Shown here: piece after piece, positions 4,767 to 9,590 of the stretch
Layout: each line of letters opens with the position of its first letter
Numbering within the stretch: position 1 is the first letter of the stretch
Assembly: GCA_017883235.1 (NCBI GenBank)
Contig: JADGNY010000053.1
Coordinates: 1-41,522, forward strand
DNA from: Thermoanaerobaculia bacterium
GTDB lineage: Bacteria; Acidobacteriota; Thermoanaerobaculia; Gp7-AA8
Length of the DNA stretch: 41,522 bases
Direction: 5' to 3'
Notes under the pieces: generated by a model
The model's input: the letters and a program-made list of their open reading frames with translations, nothing else
Told to the model about the DNA's origin: nothing
Databases searched by the model: none
Position numbers and translations under genes: made by a program

Positions 4767-4795
4767 TTGACATCGTCCGACCTCGCCCTCAAGAT
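4767..4795 (+). promoter_or_regulatory. Putative promoter of the sulfur assimilation operon
   Basis: A perfect -35 TTGACA (4767-4772) is followed after 17 bp by CAAGAT (4790-4795), which keeps the most conserved -10 positions. A start near 4802 would place the first base only about 5 nt before the ATG of the first cysteine leader peptide. This fits the lack of a Shine-Dalgarno sequence there. Confidence 0.5.
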
Positions 4796-4806
4796 GCCGA
4801 CTCGAC

Positions 4807-4887
4807 ATGATCTGCAATCCTCGTCCGATGTGTTGTCTTTGCGACGCGACTTCCGTCGCTGCATCCGGCGAGTTTGTGCACATGTAG
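4807..4887 (+). CDS. Cysteine-rich leader peptide 1 of the sulfur operon
   Basis: A 26-codon reading frame starting MICNPRPMCCLCDATSV and ending FVHM. It has four Cys codons, three of them clustered (TGT TGT CTT TGC, 4831-4842). About 18 nt beyond this cluster, bases 4860-4868 (TGCATCCGG) are perfectly complementary to 4920-4928 within the following terminator hairpin. A ribosome stalled at the Cys codons would leave this segment free to block the terminator. A ribosome reaching the stop would not. The arrangement is that of a ribosome-mediated attenuator sensing charged tRNA-Cys, ahead of cysteine-biosynthesis genes. Translation is probably leaderless. Confidence 0.6.
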   Translation: MICNPRPMCCLCDATSVAASGEFVHM

Positions 4888-4911
4888 AGCTACTCCAACC
4901 TCACAACGCAC

Positions 4912-4953
4912 AGCCCACCCCGGATGCAACCGGCGGTGGGCTTTTTCGTTTTT
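4912..4953 (+). terminator. Intrinsic terminator 1 (attenuator) of the sulfur operon
   Basis: Stem AGCCCACC (4912-4919) pairs with GGTGGGCT (4935-4942). It is extended by CCGG/CCGG around an ATGCAA loop with one bulged C. It is followed by TTTTT-CG-TTTTT. Bases 4920-4928 in the loop side also pair with 4860-4868 in leader peptide 1, giving a mutually exclusive antiterminator. Confidence 0.75.
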
Positions 4954-4983
4954 GGCCGCACCTTGGATGACATGAACGTGACG

Positions 4984-5061
4984 ATGACCTCTCTCCGGAT
5001 GACGAACTGTCCCTGCTGTCGTGACAGCCGATGGACATCGTCCGGCAATGGGAGCGGGTAG
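4984..5061 (+). CDS. Cysteine-rich leader peptide 2 of the sulfur operon
   Basis: A 25-codon frame, MTSLRMTNCPCCRDSRW then TSSGNGSG; an in-frame ATG at 4972 or 4999 could also start it. Cys codons lie at 5008, 5014 and 5017. Downstream of them, still inside the frame, CCGGCAATGGG (5042-5052) is complementary at 10 of 11 positions to CCCATCGCCGG (5110-5120) in the second terminator. The Cys codons also lie within a strong alternative hairpin spanning about 4995-5045, with GCTGTC-GT-GACAGC at its tip. This is the same logic as leader 1 in a second, tandem copy with unrelated sequence. Confidence 0.5.
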   Translation: MTSLRMTNCPCCRDSRWTSSGNGSG

Positions 5062-5106
5062 TCGTAGTCACACATCCACCCCCCACACAACAAAAAGCCA
5101 GAAAGG

Positions 5107-5144
5107 ATGCCCATCGCCGGAAACGGGGATGGGCATTTTCGTTT
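5107..5144 (+). terminator. Intrinsic terminator 2 (attenuator), just before sulfite reductase
   Basis: Stem ATGCCCATC (5107-5115) pairs with GATGGGCAT (5128-5136), extended by CCG/CGG around a GAAA tetraloop, followed by TTTTCGTTT. Its 5' half can instead pair with 5042-5052 in leader 2. The same bases hold a third tiny frame with a good Shine-Dalgarno sequence (AAAGG): 13 codons, MPIAGNGDGHFRL. Its TGA (5146-5148) overlaps the sulfite reductase ATG at 5145, which may couple translation. Confidence 0.65.
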
Positions 5145-6833
5145 ATGAGCGCAACGACAGAAACGAAAGCACAGAGGGCCGAGCGGTTGAAGCGGGAGAA
5201 GAACCCGTGGGAAGCGCTGGCCGAGCTGCGGACATTTGCCGCCAAGGGCTTCGACGCCATCCCGCCGGAGTGGCTCGGCACGTACCTCCGCTGGTGGGGC
5301 GTCTATACCCAGGGCGACGGGGCGGGCGTGCTGGGCGGGCGGAACGGGGAGGGGAAGTCGGCACCGTATCTGATGGTGCGCATCCGGATCACCAACGGTC
5401 TGCTGCTTGCGCATCAGGTCCGCACGATCGCGGCGGTGGCGGAGAAGTACGCCCGAGGGGGCGCGGACATCACCGTCCGGCAGAACGTGCAACTGCACTG
5501 GGTGGCCATCGAGGATCTGCCGGAGATCCTCGAGTCTCTCTGGAGAGTGGGACTGACCACCACCGGCTCCTGCGGCGACGACACCCGCAACATCACCGGC
5601 TGCCCGCTGGCCGGCATCGACGCCTCGGAACTGATCGACGCCTCGCCGCTGGCGGAGCAGGCCACGCGCATGCTGGTGGGAGACCCGCGCTTCTACAATC
5701 TCCCACGAAAATTCAAGGTCACCATCACCGGCTGCCGGGACTGGTGCTCCTATCCGGAGATCAACGACGTCGGTCTCACGGCGACGCAGCGCGGCGACGA
5801 GATCGGCTTCTCCATGCGCGTAGGCGGCGGGCTGTCGGCCGATCCGCATCTGGCCGTGCGGCTCAATGCCTTCATCCGCTGGAACCAGGTGCTCCCGGTT
5901 CTGCGCGCGGCGGCGGAGATCTTCCGCGACGCCGATGCCCTGCGCGAGCACCGCGACCGTGCCCGTCTCAAGCACCTCTTTCTGCGACACGGCTGGACCG
6001 GCGATCAGTTCCTCGGCGAGCTGCAGCGCCGGGTTCCTTTCAAGATCGACGAAGCGGCTCACGAGGTTCCGCCGGCCGATGTGTTCCGCGATCACGCCGG
6101 AATCCATCGGCAGAAGCAGGAGGGTTACTCGTACGTTGGCGCCTCGGTGCTGCGCGGGCGGATCACTGCGGAACAGTTGCTCGTCGCCGCCAACATCGCC
6201 GAGGCCTTTGGAAGCGGCGAGCTGCGGACGACCATCTCGCAGAACCTGCTCATCGCCAATGTCCCGACGCGCAACGCCGAGGCGGTGGCGCGGGAGCTGA
6301 CGGACGCGGGCCTGCCGACCGGCGGCTCGCCCTTCTCACGCGGCACGGTGGCCTGCACCGGTTCGCAGTTCTGCAAGCTGGGGATCACCGAGACCAAATC
6401 GTTCGCGCGCTGGCTCGTCGACGAGCTGGACACGCGCCTGCCGGGTTTTGAAGAGCAGTTGAAGATCAACATCTCCGGTTGCCCGAACAGTTGCGGCCAG
6501 CACTGGATCGCCGACCTCGGCATCGAGGGAAAGAAGATCAGCGATGGCGGCAAGCTGGTCGACGCGTATTACTTCTGCGTCGGCGGCGGGGTCGGACTGC
6601 ACGCCTCGATCGCCCGCCCGATCGGCTACCGCTGCGCGGCGAGCGACGTGCCGGACGCCATCGAGCGTCTGCTGCGGACCTGGGAAGAGGAGCGCACGGG
6701 CGGCGAGCCGCTGCGCGCGTTTCTGGGACGGCGCTCCGAGGACGCTCTGCGATCGATTCTGGCCGGCACGGCGGTGGAGGCCGCGCTGCGCGATCCATCG
6801 CCGGGCCGACCGCCACATTCACTCGAGATGTAA
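5145..6833 (+). CDS. sirA: Ferredoxin-type sulfite (nitrite/sulfite) reductase
   Basis: Siroheme/[4Fe-4S] enzyme reducing sulfite to sulfide; 562 residues, normal for the ferredoxin-dependent family. It has VRQNVQLHW near 111, SCGDDTRNITGCPLAG at 142-157, and the siroheme/cluster ligands C404-x5-C410 (ACTGSQFC) and C446-x3-C450 (SGCPNSCGQHW). Sequence alone does not separate nitrite from sulfite reductase. The neighbours (ATP sulfurylase, APS reductase) and the upstream cysteine leaders argue for sulfite. ATG 5145 is chosen over an upstream in-frame start at 5031, because the region between holds the attenuator and MSATTETKAQ looks like a normal N-terminus. First gene of a four-gene operon. 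Confidence 0.88.
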   Translation: MSATTETKAQRAERLKREKNPWEALAELRTFAAKGFDAIPPEWLGTYLRWWGVYTQGDGAGVLGGRNGEGKSAPYLMVRIRITNGLLLAHQVRTIAAVAEKYARGGADITVRQNVQLHWVAIEDLPEILESLWRVGLTTTGSCGDDTRNITGCPLAGIDASELIDASPLAEQATRMLVGDPRFYNLPRKFKVTITGCRDWCSYPEINDVGLTATQRGDEIGFSMRVGGGLSADPHLAVRLNAFIRWNQVLPVLRAAAEIFRDADALREHRDRARLKHLFLRHGWTGDQFLGELQRRVPFKIDEAAHEVPPADVFRDHAGIHRQKQEGYSYVGASVLRGRITAEQLLVAANIAEAFGSGELRTTISQNLLIANVPTRNAEAVARELTDAGLPTGGSPFSRGTVACTGSQFCKLGITETKSFARWLVDELDTRLPGFEEQLKINISGCPNSCGQHWIADLGIEGKKISDGGKLVDAYYFCVGGGVGLHASIARPIGYRCAASDVPDAIERLLRTWEEERTGGEPLRAFLGRRSEDALRSILAGTAVEAALRDPSPGRPPHSLEM

Positions 6834-6847
6834 AGGAAGAGGGCGAA

Positions 6848-7933
6848 ATGACTACGCAAACCATCGATATCGACTCACGCAACCTCAGCGATCTCTGGCT
6901 GCTCACAAACGGAGGGTTCGACCCTTTTCGAGGCTTTCATGGTTTCGACGACGCACGCTCGATCGTGGAGAACGTCGAGACCGTCGACGGCACGCTATGG
7001 CCGATCCCCATCCTGCTGCAGCTCGATCCGTCGCGGGCGGCGGAGCTGGAGATCGGCACTCTGGCGACGCTGCGCTACAGCGGGCGGGACGTGGCCACCA
7101 TGCGCGTCGACGATCGCTATCGCATTCCGCTCCGCGAGTGGGCGCGGAATATCTACAAGACAGACGATCCCGCCCATCCCGGCGTGGAGGCCTTCTACCG
7201 CGGCGGGGAAGTGGCCATCGCTGGTCCGGTGGAGTGGCTGGAAGAGGTGCCGGCATACGAGCTGGGGCTGACCGGGCTCACGCCGGCACAAACGCGCGAT
7301 GGAATCGCGCTACGCGGATGGACGTCGGTGGTGGCCTTCCAGACGCGCAATCCGATCCATCGCGCCCATGAGTACATCCTCCGCACGGCCCTGGAGATCA
7401 TCGACGGGCTGCTGCTCCATCCTCTGGTCGGCGACACGCGCGGTGAAGACGTTCCGGCGGCGGTGCGGCTGCGCTGTTACGACGCGCTGCTCGATCACTA
7501 CCTGCCGCGTGAGCGCATTCTCTTCACGACGTTCCATGGGTGGATGCGTTACGGCGGACCGCGCGAGGCGGTGCTGCATGCGCTGGTGCGCCGCAGCTTC
7601 GGGGCTACGCATTTTCTGGTCGGACGCGATCACGCCGGCGCCGGCAATTACTACGGCCCGTACGAGGCGCAGGAGCTGTTGCGGTCGATCGGCGTGGAGC
7701 GGCTGGGCATCACGCCGCTCTACTTCGACGACATCTTCCACTGCACGCGCTGCGGCTCGATGGCGTCGTCGCGCACCTGTTCGCACGAGCCAGGCCAGCG
7801 GCTGACGTTGAGCGGGACCGAGGTGCGCCGCCGCCTGCGCGACGGTGAGCCGCTGCCCGCGGAGATCACCCGCCCCGAAGTGGCGGCGGTACTGCGCGAG
7901 GCATACGCCTCGCCGGGGAGGCTTCATGCTTGA
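6848..7933 (+). CDS. sat: Sulfate adenylyltransferase (ATP sulfurylase)
   Basis: Makes adenosine 5'-phosphosulfate (APS) and pyrophosphate from sulfate and ATP, the activating step of sulfate assimilation. The 361-residue length fits the monofunctional bacterial Sat type. Nucleotide-binding motifs are QTRNPIHRAHEY from residue 165 and GRDHAGAGNYYGPY from 259. A Cys-rich segment CTRCGSMASSRTCSHE near 300 matches the zinc-binding loop of this family. The Shine-Dalgarno sequence AAGGAAGAGGG lies before ATG 6848, 14 bp after the sulfite reductase stop. No APS kinase domain is fused, consistent with direct use of APS by the reductase encoded two genes later. Confidence 0.95.
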   Translation: MTTQTIDIDSRNLSDLWLLTNGGFDPFRGFHGFDDARSIVENVETVDGTLWPIPILLQLDPSRAAELEIGTLATLRYSGRDVATMRVDDRYRIPLREWARNIYKTDDPAHPGVEAFYRGGEVAIAGPVEWLEEVPAYELGLTGLTPAQTRDGIALRGWTSVVAFQTRNPIHRAHEYILRTALEIIDGLLLHPLVGDTRGEDVPAAVRLRCYDALLDHYLPRERILFTTFHGWMRYGGPREAVLHALVRRSFGATHFLVGRDHAGAGNYYGPYEAQELLRSIGVERLGITPLYFDDIFHCTRCGSMASSRTCSHEPGQRLTLSGTEVRRRLRDGEPLPAEITRPEVAAVLREAYASPGRLHA

Positions 7934-8699
7934 GATTCTCATCGGCATCGCCGGAGGCGTGCTGATCGGCGCGACGGGGGCAGGAACGGGATCGCTGCTC
8001 ACGCCGCTATTGATCCTTGCCGGATACCGCCCGGCGCTGGCGATCGGCACGGGGATGGGGAGCTTGTTCGTGTCGAAGCTGGTCGGTTCGGTGGCCCATC
8101 GGCGGCTCGGCCACTGGCCGGGGAAGATCGGCTGGTTCGTCATCGCCGGTGGTTTGGTCGGTGTGGCCTTGGCGTCGGCCGCCGTCGCGCAATGGGGGCA
8201 GCCGGGAGGAGAGATGGCAATGCGGAGGCTGGTGGGAGGGACGCTCCTGATCGCCAGTGCCGCGGCGACGTTTGTGAGCCGGCGGCAAAAGGATGTTGTC
8301 GAAGAGGACGTTGAACGCGCCGCTCTTCCGTCGGACGATCACCCCACGCCGCGGCCATGGATTCTTCTCGCCGTCGGCATCGCTGTCGCCGCCATCGTCT
8401 CTCTCACCTCAGCAGGTTCGGGCAGCCTCCTGGTGACGCTCCTGCTGGTGGCTACGAGCTGGCGCGTGCCGCAGCTCGCCGCCATGAGCAATGTCTTCGG
8501 CTCCGTCGTCGGCGCGCTGACGCTGGGGCTGCACTGGAAGCTGCACGACTTCGATCCCCACCTGTTCGGCCTGGTGATGGCCGGCGTGATCCCGGGAGTG
8601 CTCTTTGGGGTGCTCCTCTCCCGATGGATCTCCCGCCAGTGGCTGGTGTGGGGCGTCTACATCCTCGGTATCTATCTCGGCGTGGCCTTGCTCGCCTGA
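7926..8699 (+). CDS. TauE/SafE-family sulfite/sulfonate-type exporter
   Basis: A 257-residue inner-membrane protein with about eight hydrophobic segments in two similar halves, as in the TauE/SafE (DUF81) family. The repeated glycine-rich motif occurs as GATGAGTGSLLTPLL near 15 and as LTSAGSGSLLVTLLL near 160. A charged cytoplasmic loop (RRQKDVVEEDVERAAL) separates the halves. ATG 7926 overlaps the end of sat. Its place between sat and the APS reductase gene suggests transport of a sulfur oxyanion, either export of excess sulfite or uptake of sulfate. Direction and substrate cannot be told from sequence. No classical sulfate ABC importer is in the window. Confidence 0.85.
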   Translation: MLEILIGIAGGVLIGATGAGTGSLLTPLLILAGYRPALAIGTGMGSLFVSKLVGSVAHRRLGHWPGKIGWFVIAGGLVGVALASAAVAQWGQPGGEMAMRRLVGGTLLIASAAATFVSRRQKDVVEEDVERAALPSDDHPTPRPWILLAVGIAVAAIVSLTSAGSGSLLVTLLLVATSWRVPQLAAMSNVFGSVVGALTLGLHWKLHDFDPHLFGLVMAGVIPGVLFGVLLSRWISRQWLVWGVYILGIYLGVALLA

Positions 8700-8718: not shown

Positions 8719-9423
8719 ATGACTGAGCTTGCAATCACCAGCAGCATCGATAACGGAGATCTCCCGGATGCCGAAAACTGGACGGCGCCGGAGGTCATCG
8801 AATGGGGCCTCTCGGAGTACGGGGGAGAGATCGCCATAGCCTCCAGCTTTGGAGCGGAGGATGTGGTGCTCATCGACATGGCGGCGAAGCTGGCGCCTCG
8901 GTTCCGCGTCTTCACACTCGACACCGACTTTCTCTTTCCCGAGACGTATGCGCTCATCGACCGTATCGAGCAGCGCCACGGCATCACGGTTGAGAGAACG
9001 CGCGCGGAGTTCTCGCCGATAGAGCAGGCGCGGGCGCTGGGGGAGGCGTTGTGGACGCGGCAGCCCGACGTCTGCTGCAACCTGCGGAAGGTCGAGCCGC
9101 TGACGAAGAAGCTGGCGGAGCTCAAGGGATGGATCACCGGCATCCGCCGCGATCAGTCGCCGGCGCGCGCAAACGCCCGGAAGATCGAATGGGACGCCCG
9201 TTTCGGCCTGGTCAAACTCAACCCTCTGGCCAGTTGGAACTGGAGCGACCTGTGGCAATACATCAAAGCGAACGGCGTCGACTACAACCCGCTGCACGAC
9301 CAGAACTACCCGAGCATCGGCTGCACGCACTGCACGCGTCCCGTGCTCCCGGGCGAGGATCCGCGCGCCGGCCGCTGGTCGGGGACGGCGAAGACCGAGT
9401 GCGGATTGCACGTTCAGAATTGA
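8719..9423 (+). CDS. cysH: Assimilatory adenylylsulfate (APS) reductase
   Basis: Reduces activated sulfate to sulfite using thioredoxin; 234 residues, PAPS/APS reductase family. SSFGAEDVVLIDM near 42 is the PP-loop-like phosphosulfate-binding motif, and FTLDTDFLFPETY follows near 65. The paired cysteines CC (119-120) and C202-x2-C205 are the [4Fe-4S] ligands that distinguish APS reductases from PAPS reductases. The catalytic Cys is C228 in TECGLH. It starts 19 bp after the exporter with an AAAGGAA ribosome binding site. With sat and sirA it forms a complete sulfate-to-sulfide path without APS kinase. Confidence 0.93.
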   Translation: MTELAITSSIDNGDLPDAENWTAPEVIEWGLSEYGGEIAIASSFGAEDVVLIDMAAKLAPRFRVFTLDTDFLFPETYALIDRIEQRHGITVERTRAEFSPIEQARALGEALWTRQPDVCCNLRKVEPLTKKLAELKGWITGIRRDQSPARANARKIEWDARFGLVKLNPLASWNWSDLWQYIKANGVDYNPLHDQNYPSIGCTHCTRPVLPGEDPRAGRWSGTAKTECGLHVQN

Positions 9424-9448
9424 AACCGGGAGCGATCACGCGCATAAT
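9420..9448 (+). promoter_or_regulatory. Putative promoter of pheA
   Basis: TTGAAA (9420-9425), a 17-bp spacer, then CATAAT (9443-9448) matches sigma-70 consensus at five of six positions in each box. It overlaps the cysH stop codon. A start near 9455 would place the leader-peptide GTG (9459) only about 4 nt from the 5' end, paralleling the cysteine leader. Confidence 0.6.
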
Positions 9449-9458
9449 GCCGCCCCAC

Positions 9459-9521
9459 GTGAACACGACGTCCTGCTTCGCCGCGCGATTTACCGGCTTC
9501 TTTTCGAAGGAGCGGCGGTGA
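9459..9521 (+). CDS. pheL: Phenylalanine-rich leader peptide of pheA
   Basis: A 20-codon frame, MNTTSCFAARFTGFFSKERR, with GTG as the start; an upstream ATG at 9447 in the same frame overlaps the predicted -10 box and would not be transcribed. Phe codons lie at 9477, 9489, 9498 and 9501. Just after them, AGGAGCGG (9508-9515) is complementary to CCGCTCCT inside the terminator 5' arm. Stalling at the Phe codons for lack of charged tRNA-Phe would leave 9508-9515 free to disarm the terminator. Reaching the TGA (9519) would cover it. This matches classical pheL attenuation logic upstream of a phenylalanine-synthesis gene. The name is by analogy; the sequence is unrelated to the enterobacterial peptide. 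Confidence 0.65.
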   Translation: MNTTSCFAARFTGFFSKERR

Positions 9522-9556
9522 CGTCTTAGCGTAGCAATCTCAGTCAGTCCACCCGA

Positions 9557-9590
9557 CCCGCTCCTCATGCCGAGGAGCGGGTTTTTTGTT
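9557..9590 (+). terminator. Intrinsic terminator (attenuator) in the pheA leader
   Basis: A perfect 10-bp stem, CCCGCTCCTC (9557-9566) with GAGGAGCGGG (9572-9581), has a 5-nt loop and is followed by TTTTTTGTTTTC. It sits 3 bp before the pheA Shine-Dalgarno sequence AGGAGGA (9594-9600), a position that only makes sense as a conditional terminator. The 5' arm has an alternative partner in the leader peptide at 9508-9515. Confidence 0.85.

Follow-up and report, generated by a model that had tools for sequence, protein, structure and literature searches.

Two related cysteine-codon leaders in series before the sulfate assimilation genes of a Thermoanaerobaculia bacterium, a probable pair of attenuators

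The 41,522-base stretch of DNA analysed here (the window) is a single contig of a 6.9-Mb genome of a Thermoanaerobaculia bacterium. Its plus strand carries, in order, proC, a promoter, a short cysteine-rich leader open reading frame (ORF), a terminator, a second such leader and a second terminator, followed by the genes sirA-sat-tauE-cysH (Table 1). From the comparisons and predicted folds set out below, we consider it likely that positions 4797-5144 encode two ribosome-mediated attenuators of the trp/his type, placed in series, which would sense charged tRNA-Cys and would have arisen by an old duplication. The parts of both devices, the potential of their segments to pair, their kinship with each other and with a family of acidobacterial leaders, and the nature of the downstream genes were established directly.

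Parts and kinship of the two devices

An earlier, sequence-only reading of this DNA had proposed two Cys-rich leaders, each followed by an intrinsic terminator and each containing a segment complementary to it, before genes whose end product is cysteine. Both leaders and both terminators were found where it had placed them, and neither hairpin was equalled in stability by any of 200 shuffles. A recount of the two leader-terminator helices returned the same 9 of 9 and 10 of 11 pairs (Table 1), and the genes after both devices were assigned by domain search to sulfate assimilation, which leads to cysteine. The window holds the traits of trp and his attenuators, namely a leader ORF with codons for the end product, a terminator that is intrinsic by its structure, and an antiterminator segment past the control codons.

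When the leader side was dinucleotide-shuffled, a pairing with the terminator as good as the best native one arose in 1/300 cases for device 1 (p = 0.007) and in 0/300 for device 2 (p = 0.003). In a second test of the same pairing (segments 2:3, the antiterminator), 0/200 shuffles reached the native value for either device. The antiterminator stretch of device 1 was also unusually stable (z = -3.8; 0/200 shuffles as good). Within each device the energies of protector, antiterminator and terminator, each calculated on its own stretch, are close (Table 1), and the rival folds lie within ~2 kcal/mol of one another on the folded stretches. In device 2, a competing antiterminator helix (5029-5034:5111-5116 with 5036-5039:5106-5109) is, at -26.6 kcal/mol, slightly better than the helix of the sequence-only reading.

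The two leaders had been said to share no sequence, and to be either independent or long-diverged. Our comparisons do not bear out the former statement and, as to origin, fit long divergence and not independence. Aligned from start codon to U tract, devices 1 and 2 gave a local score of 42, and each aligned in turn to the device of G001, a genome of the same family (scores of 38 and 44); in all three alignments, 0/500 shuffles scored as high. A covariance model, R1, built from the leaders of 61 relatives (alignment A2) with the window excluded, matches the window at two places and no more when E is allowed up to 10, namely at device 1 (4807-4949; 26.3 bits) and device 2 (4978-5142; 20.5 bits), with rough E-values of 3e-5 and 8e-4, respectively. 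Since the devices align end to end and are both found by one covariance model, we regard them, on this sequence evidence, as diverged copies and not as unrelated elements, and the duplication as genuine and old.

As far as seen, the tandem is peculiar to the lineage of the window. Among 65 sirA loci, 63 of which have a full match (4 of the 63 with <200 bases upstream), there was no second full-length match to R1 on the same strand within 1 kb at E up to 1, and neither was there one in 31 further loci. By eye, no tandem was seen among the matches listed for 396 genomes of the phylum and 299 genomes of a class that includes genome G225 (see below), where the filters were strict enough to miss device 2. 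G001 has one device, whose leader MISAYRPMCCNAHGSNGAEAFV shares RPMCC with leader 1 and is followed by a terminator of -32.1 kcal/mol. A second strong hairpin (-24.4 kcal/mol, z = -5.1; L007, 3181-3218, minus strand), without a leader, stands just 5′ of sirA in G001 and is possibly what remains of a second device.

Table 1. Features of the leader region and of the operon downstream (all positions refer to the window)
Feature	Position	Strand	Basis and remarks
Promoter, TTGACA (4767-4772), 17 nt, CAAGAT (4790-4795)	4767-4795	+	Sequence match
Leader ORF 1, MICNPRPMCCLCDATSVAASGEFVHM	4807-4887	+	Cys codons at 4813, 4831, 4834, 4840
Protector helix 1:2, device 1 (4820-4825:4867-4872, 4827-4831:4861-4865)	4820-4872	+	Predicted fold, -24.5 kcal/mol
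Antiterminator 2:3, device 1 (4860-4868:4920-4928)	4860-4928	+	9/9 pairs, -26.0 kcal/mol
Terminator 1, stem 4912-4942 then U tract	4912-4947	+	-25.8 kcal/mol, z -4.9, 0/200 shuffles as stable
Leader ORF 2, MNVTMTSLRMTNCPCCRDSRWTSSGNGSG	4972-5061	+	Cys codons at 5008, 5014, 5017; frame already open from ATG 4924
Protector helix 1:2, device 2 (4995-5002:5038-5045, 5008-5012:5033-5037)	4995-5045	+	Predicted fold, encloses Cys codons, -25.4 kcal/mol
Antiterminator 2:3, device 2 (helix of the sequence-only reading, 5042-5052:5110-5120)	5029-5120	+	10/11 pairs, -24.8 kcal/mol
Terminator 2, stem 5104-5139 then U tract	5104-5142	+	-26.2 kcal/mol, z -6.1, 0/200 shuffles as stable
sirA, sulfite/nitrite-reductase family haemoprotein, operon gene 1	5145-6833	+	Pfam above cut-off; NCBIfam matches all below cut-off; name given from context
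sat, ATP sulfurylase	6479-7933	+	Frame open from 6479, domains recognised from ~6839
TauE/SafE family membrane protein	7845-8699	+	Frame start uncertain
cysH, (P)APS reductase	8719-9423	+	Family matches

A leader family before sirA in Acidobacteriota

SirA homologues with 62-69% identity were collected from named genomes (287 places in all, the best 80 taken); L097, with its match at a contig edge, was dropped, leaving 79 loci. A polycysteine leader and a terminator precede sirA in 64/79, all 64 being titled as acidobacterial taxa, and their Cys-rich short ORFs (e.g., MTSFSNLRQICMCACCCCACVCSGAGRLLT) end roughly 60-175 bases upstream of the gene. Thirteen relatives are without the leader, and R1 has no match in them at E up to 1. 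Twelve of these carry titles of Methylomirabilota or Rokubacteria. The remaining one, L073, bears the name Acidobacteria in its title, and its SirA clusters with one from Rokubacteria. L104 and L106, in which no Cys ORF passed the scan, were counted neither way; R1 matches them in part: in L104 its terminator portion is found 5′ of sirA (41.6 bits), and in L106 the match is fragmentary and lies at the contig edge (17.6 bits). A SirA tree was built from 38 rows (the window, 34 chosen loci and 3 outgroups); on it, presence of the leader (22 with, 13 without) needs one change only, at branch support 70/99, and 0/500 shuffles needed as few.

Nearer to the window, 19/148 genomes of its class match sirA with E no higher than 1e-40; among these, identity above 60% is confined to the window genome and G001 (69%). 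A DNA search of 18 genomes of its family with the leader gave three weak matches besides the window (L003, L004 and L005); that in L003 falls within a frame resembling a permease gene, and we attribute it to chance. Short ORFs ending CTCS(G/W/K)R(V/M) precede a distant sir in family f12 of the class (L008, L009 and L010) and may represent a different Cys leader.

The usual order of the family is a CGCCAGA-like segment, the Cys run, a TCTGGCG-like segment inside the leader frame, the stop codon, a hairpin of the form CCCACCGCCAGA...TCTGGCGGTGGG, and a T run. In most leaders, these segments are able to pair as 1:2, 2:3 or 3:4. In A2, which comprises 61 leaders (the divergent L031, L059 and L101 being left out), the terminator stem covaries, with 8 pairs changed on both sides and 31 cells (0/500 shuffles as high for either), and in the antiterminator 92.7% of cells are paired, versus 30-42% when slid. 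The sequence-only reading had named a lack of conserved Cys codons or antiterminator pairing in relatives as grounds for its refutation, and this comparison came out in its favour: the 64 loci all have the Cys run, the terminator and the 2:3 pairing upstream of sirA, and by itself the pairing is significant in part of them. When each of the 64 leaders and both devices of the window were tested singly, p < 0.05 was obtained for 2:3 pairing in 31/66 and for 1:2 in 27/66.

Among more diverse devices, the leader-terminator complementarity reached p < 0.05 in 22/34, many of which are related and do not amount to 34 independent tests. This set consisted of full-length matches, both window devices included, and left out three partial opposite-strand matches, L140 (whose device reads as that of L132), L131 and L142; for L136, the wrong leader frame was probably chosen. 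The letters that pair differ while the match is kept, as in TGCATCCGG/CCGGATGCA of device 1, TCCGGCAATGGG/CCCATCGCCGGA of device 2 and CTCTCCGGCGGTGG/CCACTGCCGGAGAG of L119.

Cysteine codons are chosen differently in leaders and in genes. The leaders of the 64 relatives mostly use TGT (283 TGT:154 TGC), as do those of the window (4:3), whereas genes prefer TGC (89 TGT:674 TGC in the sirA genes; 5:29 in eight window genes). Fisher's test gave p = 7e-82 for the relatives, a value inflated by the relatedness of the sequences, and p = 0.03 for the window.

The -10 element of the window promoter starts 17 nt upstream of the leader-1 ATG, so that the RNA would begin only a few bases 5′ of that codon. 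A general promoter scan did not flag this site, whose -10 matches 3/6. A promoter with its -10 shortly 5′ of the leader ATG is a trait of the family that device 1 shares: a promoter score of at least 8 was found in 49/60 relatives tested (as judged by the score threshold alone), and among these 49 the -10 lies at -12 to -20 in 38 and at -4 in 9 more, where a longer ATG was probably chosen.

Proposed mechanism and its alternatives

We infer the following course of events. Transcription would start just upstream of leader 1, which would be translated. With Cys-tRNA plentiful, the ribosome would pass the Cys codons, segment 2 would be either masked or paired anew with segment 1, and RNA polymerase would be halted by terminator 1; with Cys-tRNA scarce, the ribosome would stall on the Cys codons, segment 2 would pair with segment 3, and terminator 1 would be blocked. 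A polymerase past terminator 1 would then reach leader 2, where the same test would be repeated before sirA-sat-tauE-cysH. Because the operon would be reached only if both tests were passed, the readthrough fractions would multiply, and leak would be lower and the response steeper than with one device.

Since full-length folding always yielded the terminator, we folded RNAs truncated shortly before the 3′ arm of the terminator. With everything up to the stalled ribosome masked, antiterminator 1 formed at all three clustered Cys codons (-26.0 to -33.6 kcal/mol at 3′ ends 4929, 4932 and 4935). In device 2, the 5′ arm of the terminator was paired upstream, through a helix partly other than that of the sequence-only reading.

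Several results weigh against such a switch. As soon as its 3′ arm has been made, the terminator gives the best fold whatever the state of the ribosome, stalling included; the switch must consequently be kinetic, the fold being chosen during transcription, as in known attenuators. Truncated device-1 RNA favours the antiterminator with no ribosome as well, 7 pairs of antiterminator 1 can still form when a ribosome footprint covers the leader-1 stop, and the loss of antiterminator 1 when all up to the stop is masked comes about by construction. The protector 1:2 with the control codons appears in the folds, but was not significant in an ungapped shuffle test of the window leaders (p = 0.34 and 0.80); in A2 it is 71.6% paired, with covariation within that of shuffles. 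Covariation of 2:3 in A2 was likewise within shuffles (46 to 467 of 500 as high, depending on the measure), the 2:3 letters varying hardly at all there, and the antiterminator of G001 was not significant (p = 0.68). R1 is not cysteine-specific and also matches Thr, His and Met/Cys leaders, so that specificity for cysteine rests on the codons. In whole-genome scans with R1, device 1 alone passes. The leader part alone gave weak nhmmer matches in the window (E of 1.6 and 6.8, ranks 1 and 6), and the terminator part alone stronger ones (E of 0.0011 and 0.11, ranks 1 and 2). A general terminator scan of the plus strand listed neither terminator (3 sites versus 4.7 expected), and a strict scan of the window for a Cys ORF with a terminator returned device 2 only, missing device 1.

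Further points of this kind concern device 2 and bear on whether device 1 alone works as an attenuator, with device 2 a copy in decay that serves as a further terminator under weak regulation or none. Device 2 scores below device 1 with R1 (20.5 versus 26.3 bits) and has fewer Cys codons, in a short run (NCPCC). It occupies an internal position, with no promoter of its own (windows tested at 4969 and 4996, three bases off) and no clear Shine-Dalgarno match as judged by eye. Its antiterminator stretch (5026-5122) is no more stable than shuffles (z = -0.99; 31/200 as good). No second device was found in the relatives scanned and, with the tandem seen only in the window, conservation cannot test selection on leader 2. 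However, its frame, three Cys codons, protector, antiterminator match (p = 0.003) and terminator are all present and balanced in energy despite the divergence. A copy free of selection would presumably have lost some of these parts, and a constitutive second terminator would cost expression whenever the operon is needed. We think decay of device 2 doubtful, and this device may still respond to cysteine.

The near-leaderless appearance of leader 1, which resembles that of mycobacterial polycysteine ORFs, would suit leaders that act mainly on translation or via Rho, as proposed for the mycobacterial Cys leaders, and not through intrinsic termination. Such control is improbable here, given two strong hairpins with U tracts, terminator stems that covary across the family, and a leader-terminator pairing that has been kept; moreover, the stem of terminator 2 ends at 5139, upstream of the sirA start codon at 5145. 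No Rfam family (SAM, T-box, amino-acid leaders and others were among those searched) reached the gathering score in the window, and in ten of the loci two tRNAs did so and nothing else. We give hardly any credence to chance, under which short frames that happen to contain Cys codons would lie beside everyday terminators, whether that of proC or one belonging to no particular gene. It is true that short frames with a CC pair and 3 or more Cys are not uncommon (both strands of the window together hold 7, versus 3.75 per Markov copy), but the strict scan found 0 with a terminator in 20 Markov copies, and the conservation and the model matches contradict this explanation. Chance, riboswitch, Rho and translational readings are accordingly ranked below attenuation: the conserved kind of device is real, and the attenuation mechanism of the sequence-only reading is the best one for it.

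Other genes, other sensor codons and wider meaning

Beyond the sirA relatives, R1 at E 0.01 matches 24/396 genomes of the phylum and 113/299 genomes of the class of G225, which we took to be Terriglobia because the leader of G225 (L114) has the same peptide as that of L098. Cys leaders were found there before sirA (L114, L115 and L122), before cysH followed by a reductase (L124, L126, L127, L134 and L135; PAPS reductase matched for L124) and, by likeness, before another sir-like gene (L129). They also precede cysteine-synthase-like genes for pyridoxal-phosphate (PLP) enzymes (L108, L119, L120 and L139), of which that in L108 matched PALP, with cysteine synthase models below their cut-offs. Others stand before JAB/Mec-like genes (L109 and L112; Prok-JAB matched for L109), sulfur-transport-type membrane proteins (L137 and L141; families tested), a Cys/Met PLP enzyme (L130; Pfam) and an outer-membrane transport protein (L123; family tested). 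The sequence of L121 ends before its gene. Genes given here with neither a family match nor a family test were named by likeness. L131 and L142 look terminator-only and L111 shows no Cys leader; these three were not counted as Cys leaders.

At six loci (L116-L118, L125, L128 and L133), a Cys leader and terminator at ~1501-1675 precede a rhodanese gene and then an encapsulin shell gene. In L117 these are a rhodanese and a family 2A encapsulin (NF041162, above the NCBIfam cut-off); the other five loci were assigned by likeness. Polycysteine leaders at ~1501-1647 precede peroxiredoxin genes in L132, L138 and L140 (AhpC/1-Cys peroxiredoxin by Pfam for L138, the rest by likeness). Met-rich leaders, MCCMAMPM and MAMAM, stand before genes for PLP enzymes of Cys/Met metabolism in L130 (Pfam) and L136 (likeness), and may be a Met-sensing version.

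The same scaffold recurs with other codons in L106 (5445-5611), L103 (4081-4186 and 12808-12939), L096 (10930-11060) and L040 (2649-2762, minus strand). At these loci, the genes downstream are aspartokinase-like where the sensor codons are Thr/Ile, homoserine-kinase-like where they are Thr, threonine-synthase-like where they are Met/Cys, and hisI-like where they are His. All four gene names are putative and were given from the starts of the proteins. We see about as much reason to accept as to question a broader proposal, in which the pair in series would be a multiplicative, ultrasensitive cysteine gate and a single example of an attenuator scaffold of Acidobacteriota that is so far unlisted. 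In that scaffold, the sensor codons (Cys, Thr, His, Met/Cys) would be exchanged while the RNA frame is kept, and family 2A encapsulin operons would belong to its cysteine regulon.

Two other features of the window were observed. A Phe-codon leader, MPPHVNTTSCFAARFTGFFSKERR, at 9447-9521 is followed by a strong terminator (9555-9583) and then pheA, and forms an apparent Phe attenuator (9447-9590). A sequence resembling GCKGGCGTCTCGCCKGC recurs in inverted pairs, with 110-165 bases between the copies, at 1397/1559, 2814/2977, 4578/4702, 24894/25006 and 28078/28236, and one copy falls within the 3′ end of proC. The window holds 13 matches with at most 3 mismatches, versus ~1 expected, for a pattern that was picked after one pair had been seen.

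The E. coli trp and his leaders are the classic ribosome-mediated transcription attenuators. Polycysteine leaderless ORFs in mycobacteria were reportedly described by Canestrari in 2020. Like trp and his (for the trp attenuator, see the passage in PMC3641672), the devices described here combine a leader peptide rich in end-product codons with alternative folds, terminator versus antiterminator; unlike them, they carry a cysteine signal, belong to Acidobacteriota, have a leader 1 that is probably nearly leaderless, and stand two in series. Compared by description, the uORFC-8-2 motif before cysS of Rhodobacterales, a Cys-codon attenuator in the relevant passage of PMC8632094, shares tandem Cys codons in a short ORF, stems and a U run fitting an intrinsic terminator, but is alphaproteobacterial, precedes cysS and is single. 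Cys leader peptides precede cys operons of Mycobacterium and P. acnes and cbs of B. longum, and those of Mycobacterium have their Cys run near the stop codon, with no conserved terminator hairpins found, according to the section on them in PMC1262725; their mode of control is termed translation attenuation in the corresponding text of PMC13236596. They share with the present family the runs of Cys codons before sulfur assimilation genes and the leaderless start, but the terminators of the present family are conserved.

Two control elements in series are also present in the tandem attenuators of Salmonella mgtCBR, whose stem-loops do not resemble intrinsic terminators, and in the tandem riboswitches of B. 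clausii metE, both of which respond to two different signals in the account given by part of PMC3641672. They are present, too, in the tandem terminators of the gammaproteobacterial rimP-leader, for which the passage in PMC2965389 names no leader peptide. Here, one signal would be read twice by homologous leader-peptide devices. In the portions of the open literature covered, most subscription papers falling outside the search, we found neither a Cys attenuator in Acidobacteria nor tandem leader-peptide attenuators for the same signal.

As of 2010, hardly any predicted acidobacterial attenuator had been given a function, according to the same passage (PMC2965389). The present analysis offers a concrete case, a family of terminator-based attenuators for cysteine that stand before genes of sulfate assimilation, cysteine-synthase-like genes, rhodanese-encapsulin genes and peroxiredoxin genes. 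Regulated genes are thereby predicted for a phylum that is represented here largely by loci from metagenome assemblies, and Cys leaders before the rhodanese-encapsulin genes would tie encapsulin expression to cysteine. A natural pair of attenuators for an equal signal would also allow one to test cleanly whether a response becomes sharper when such switches are stacked.

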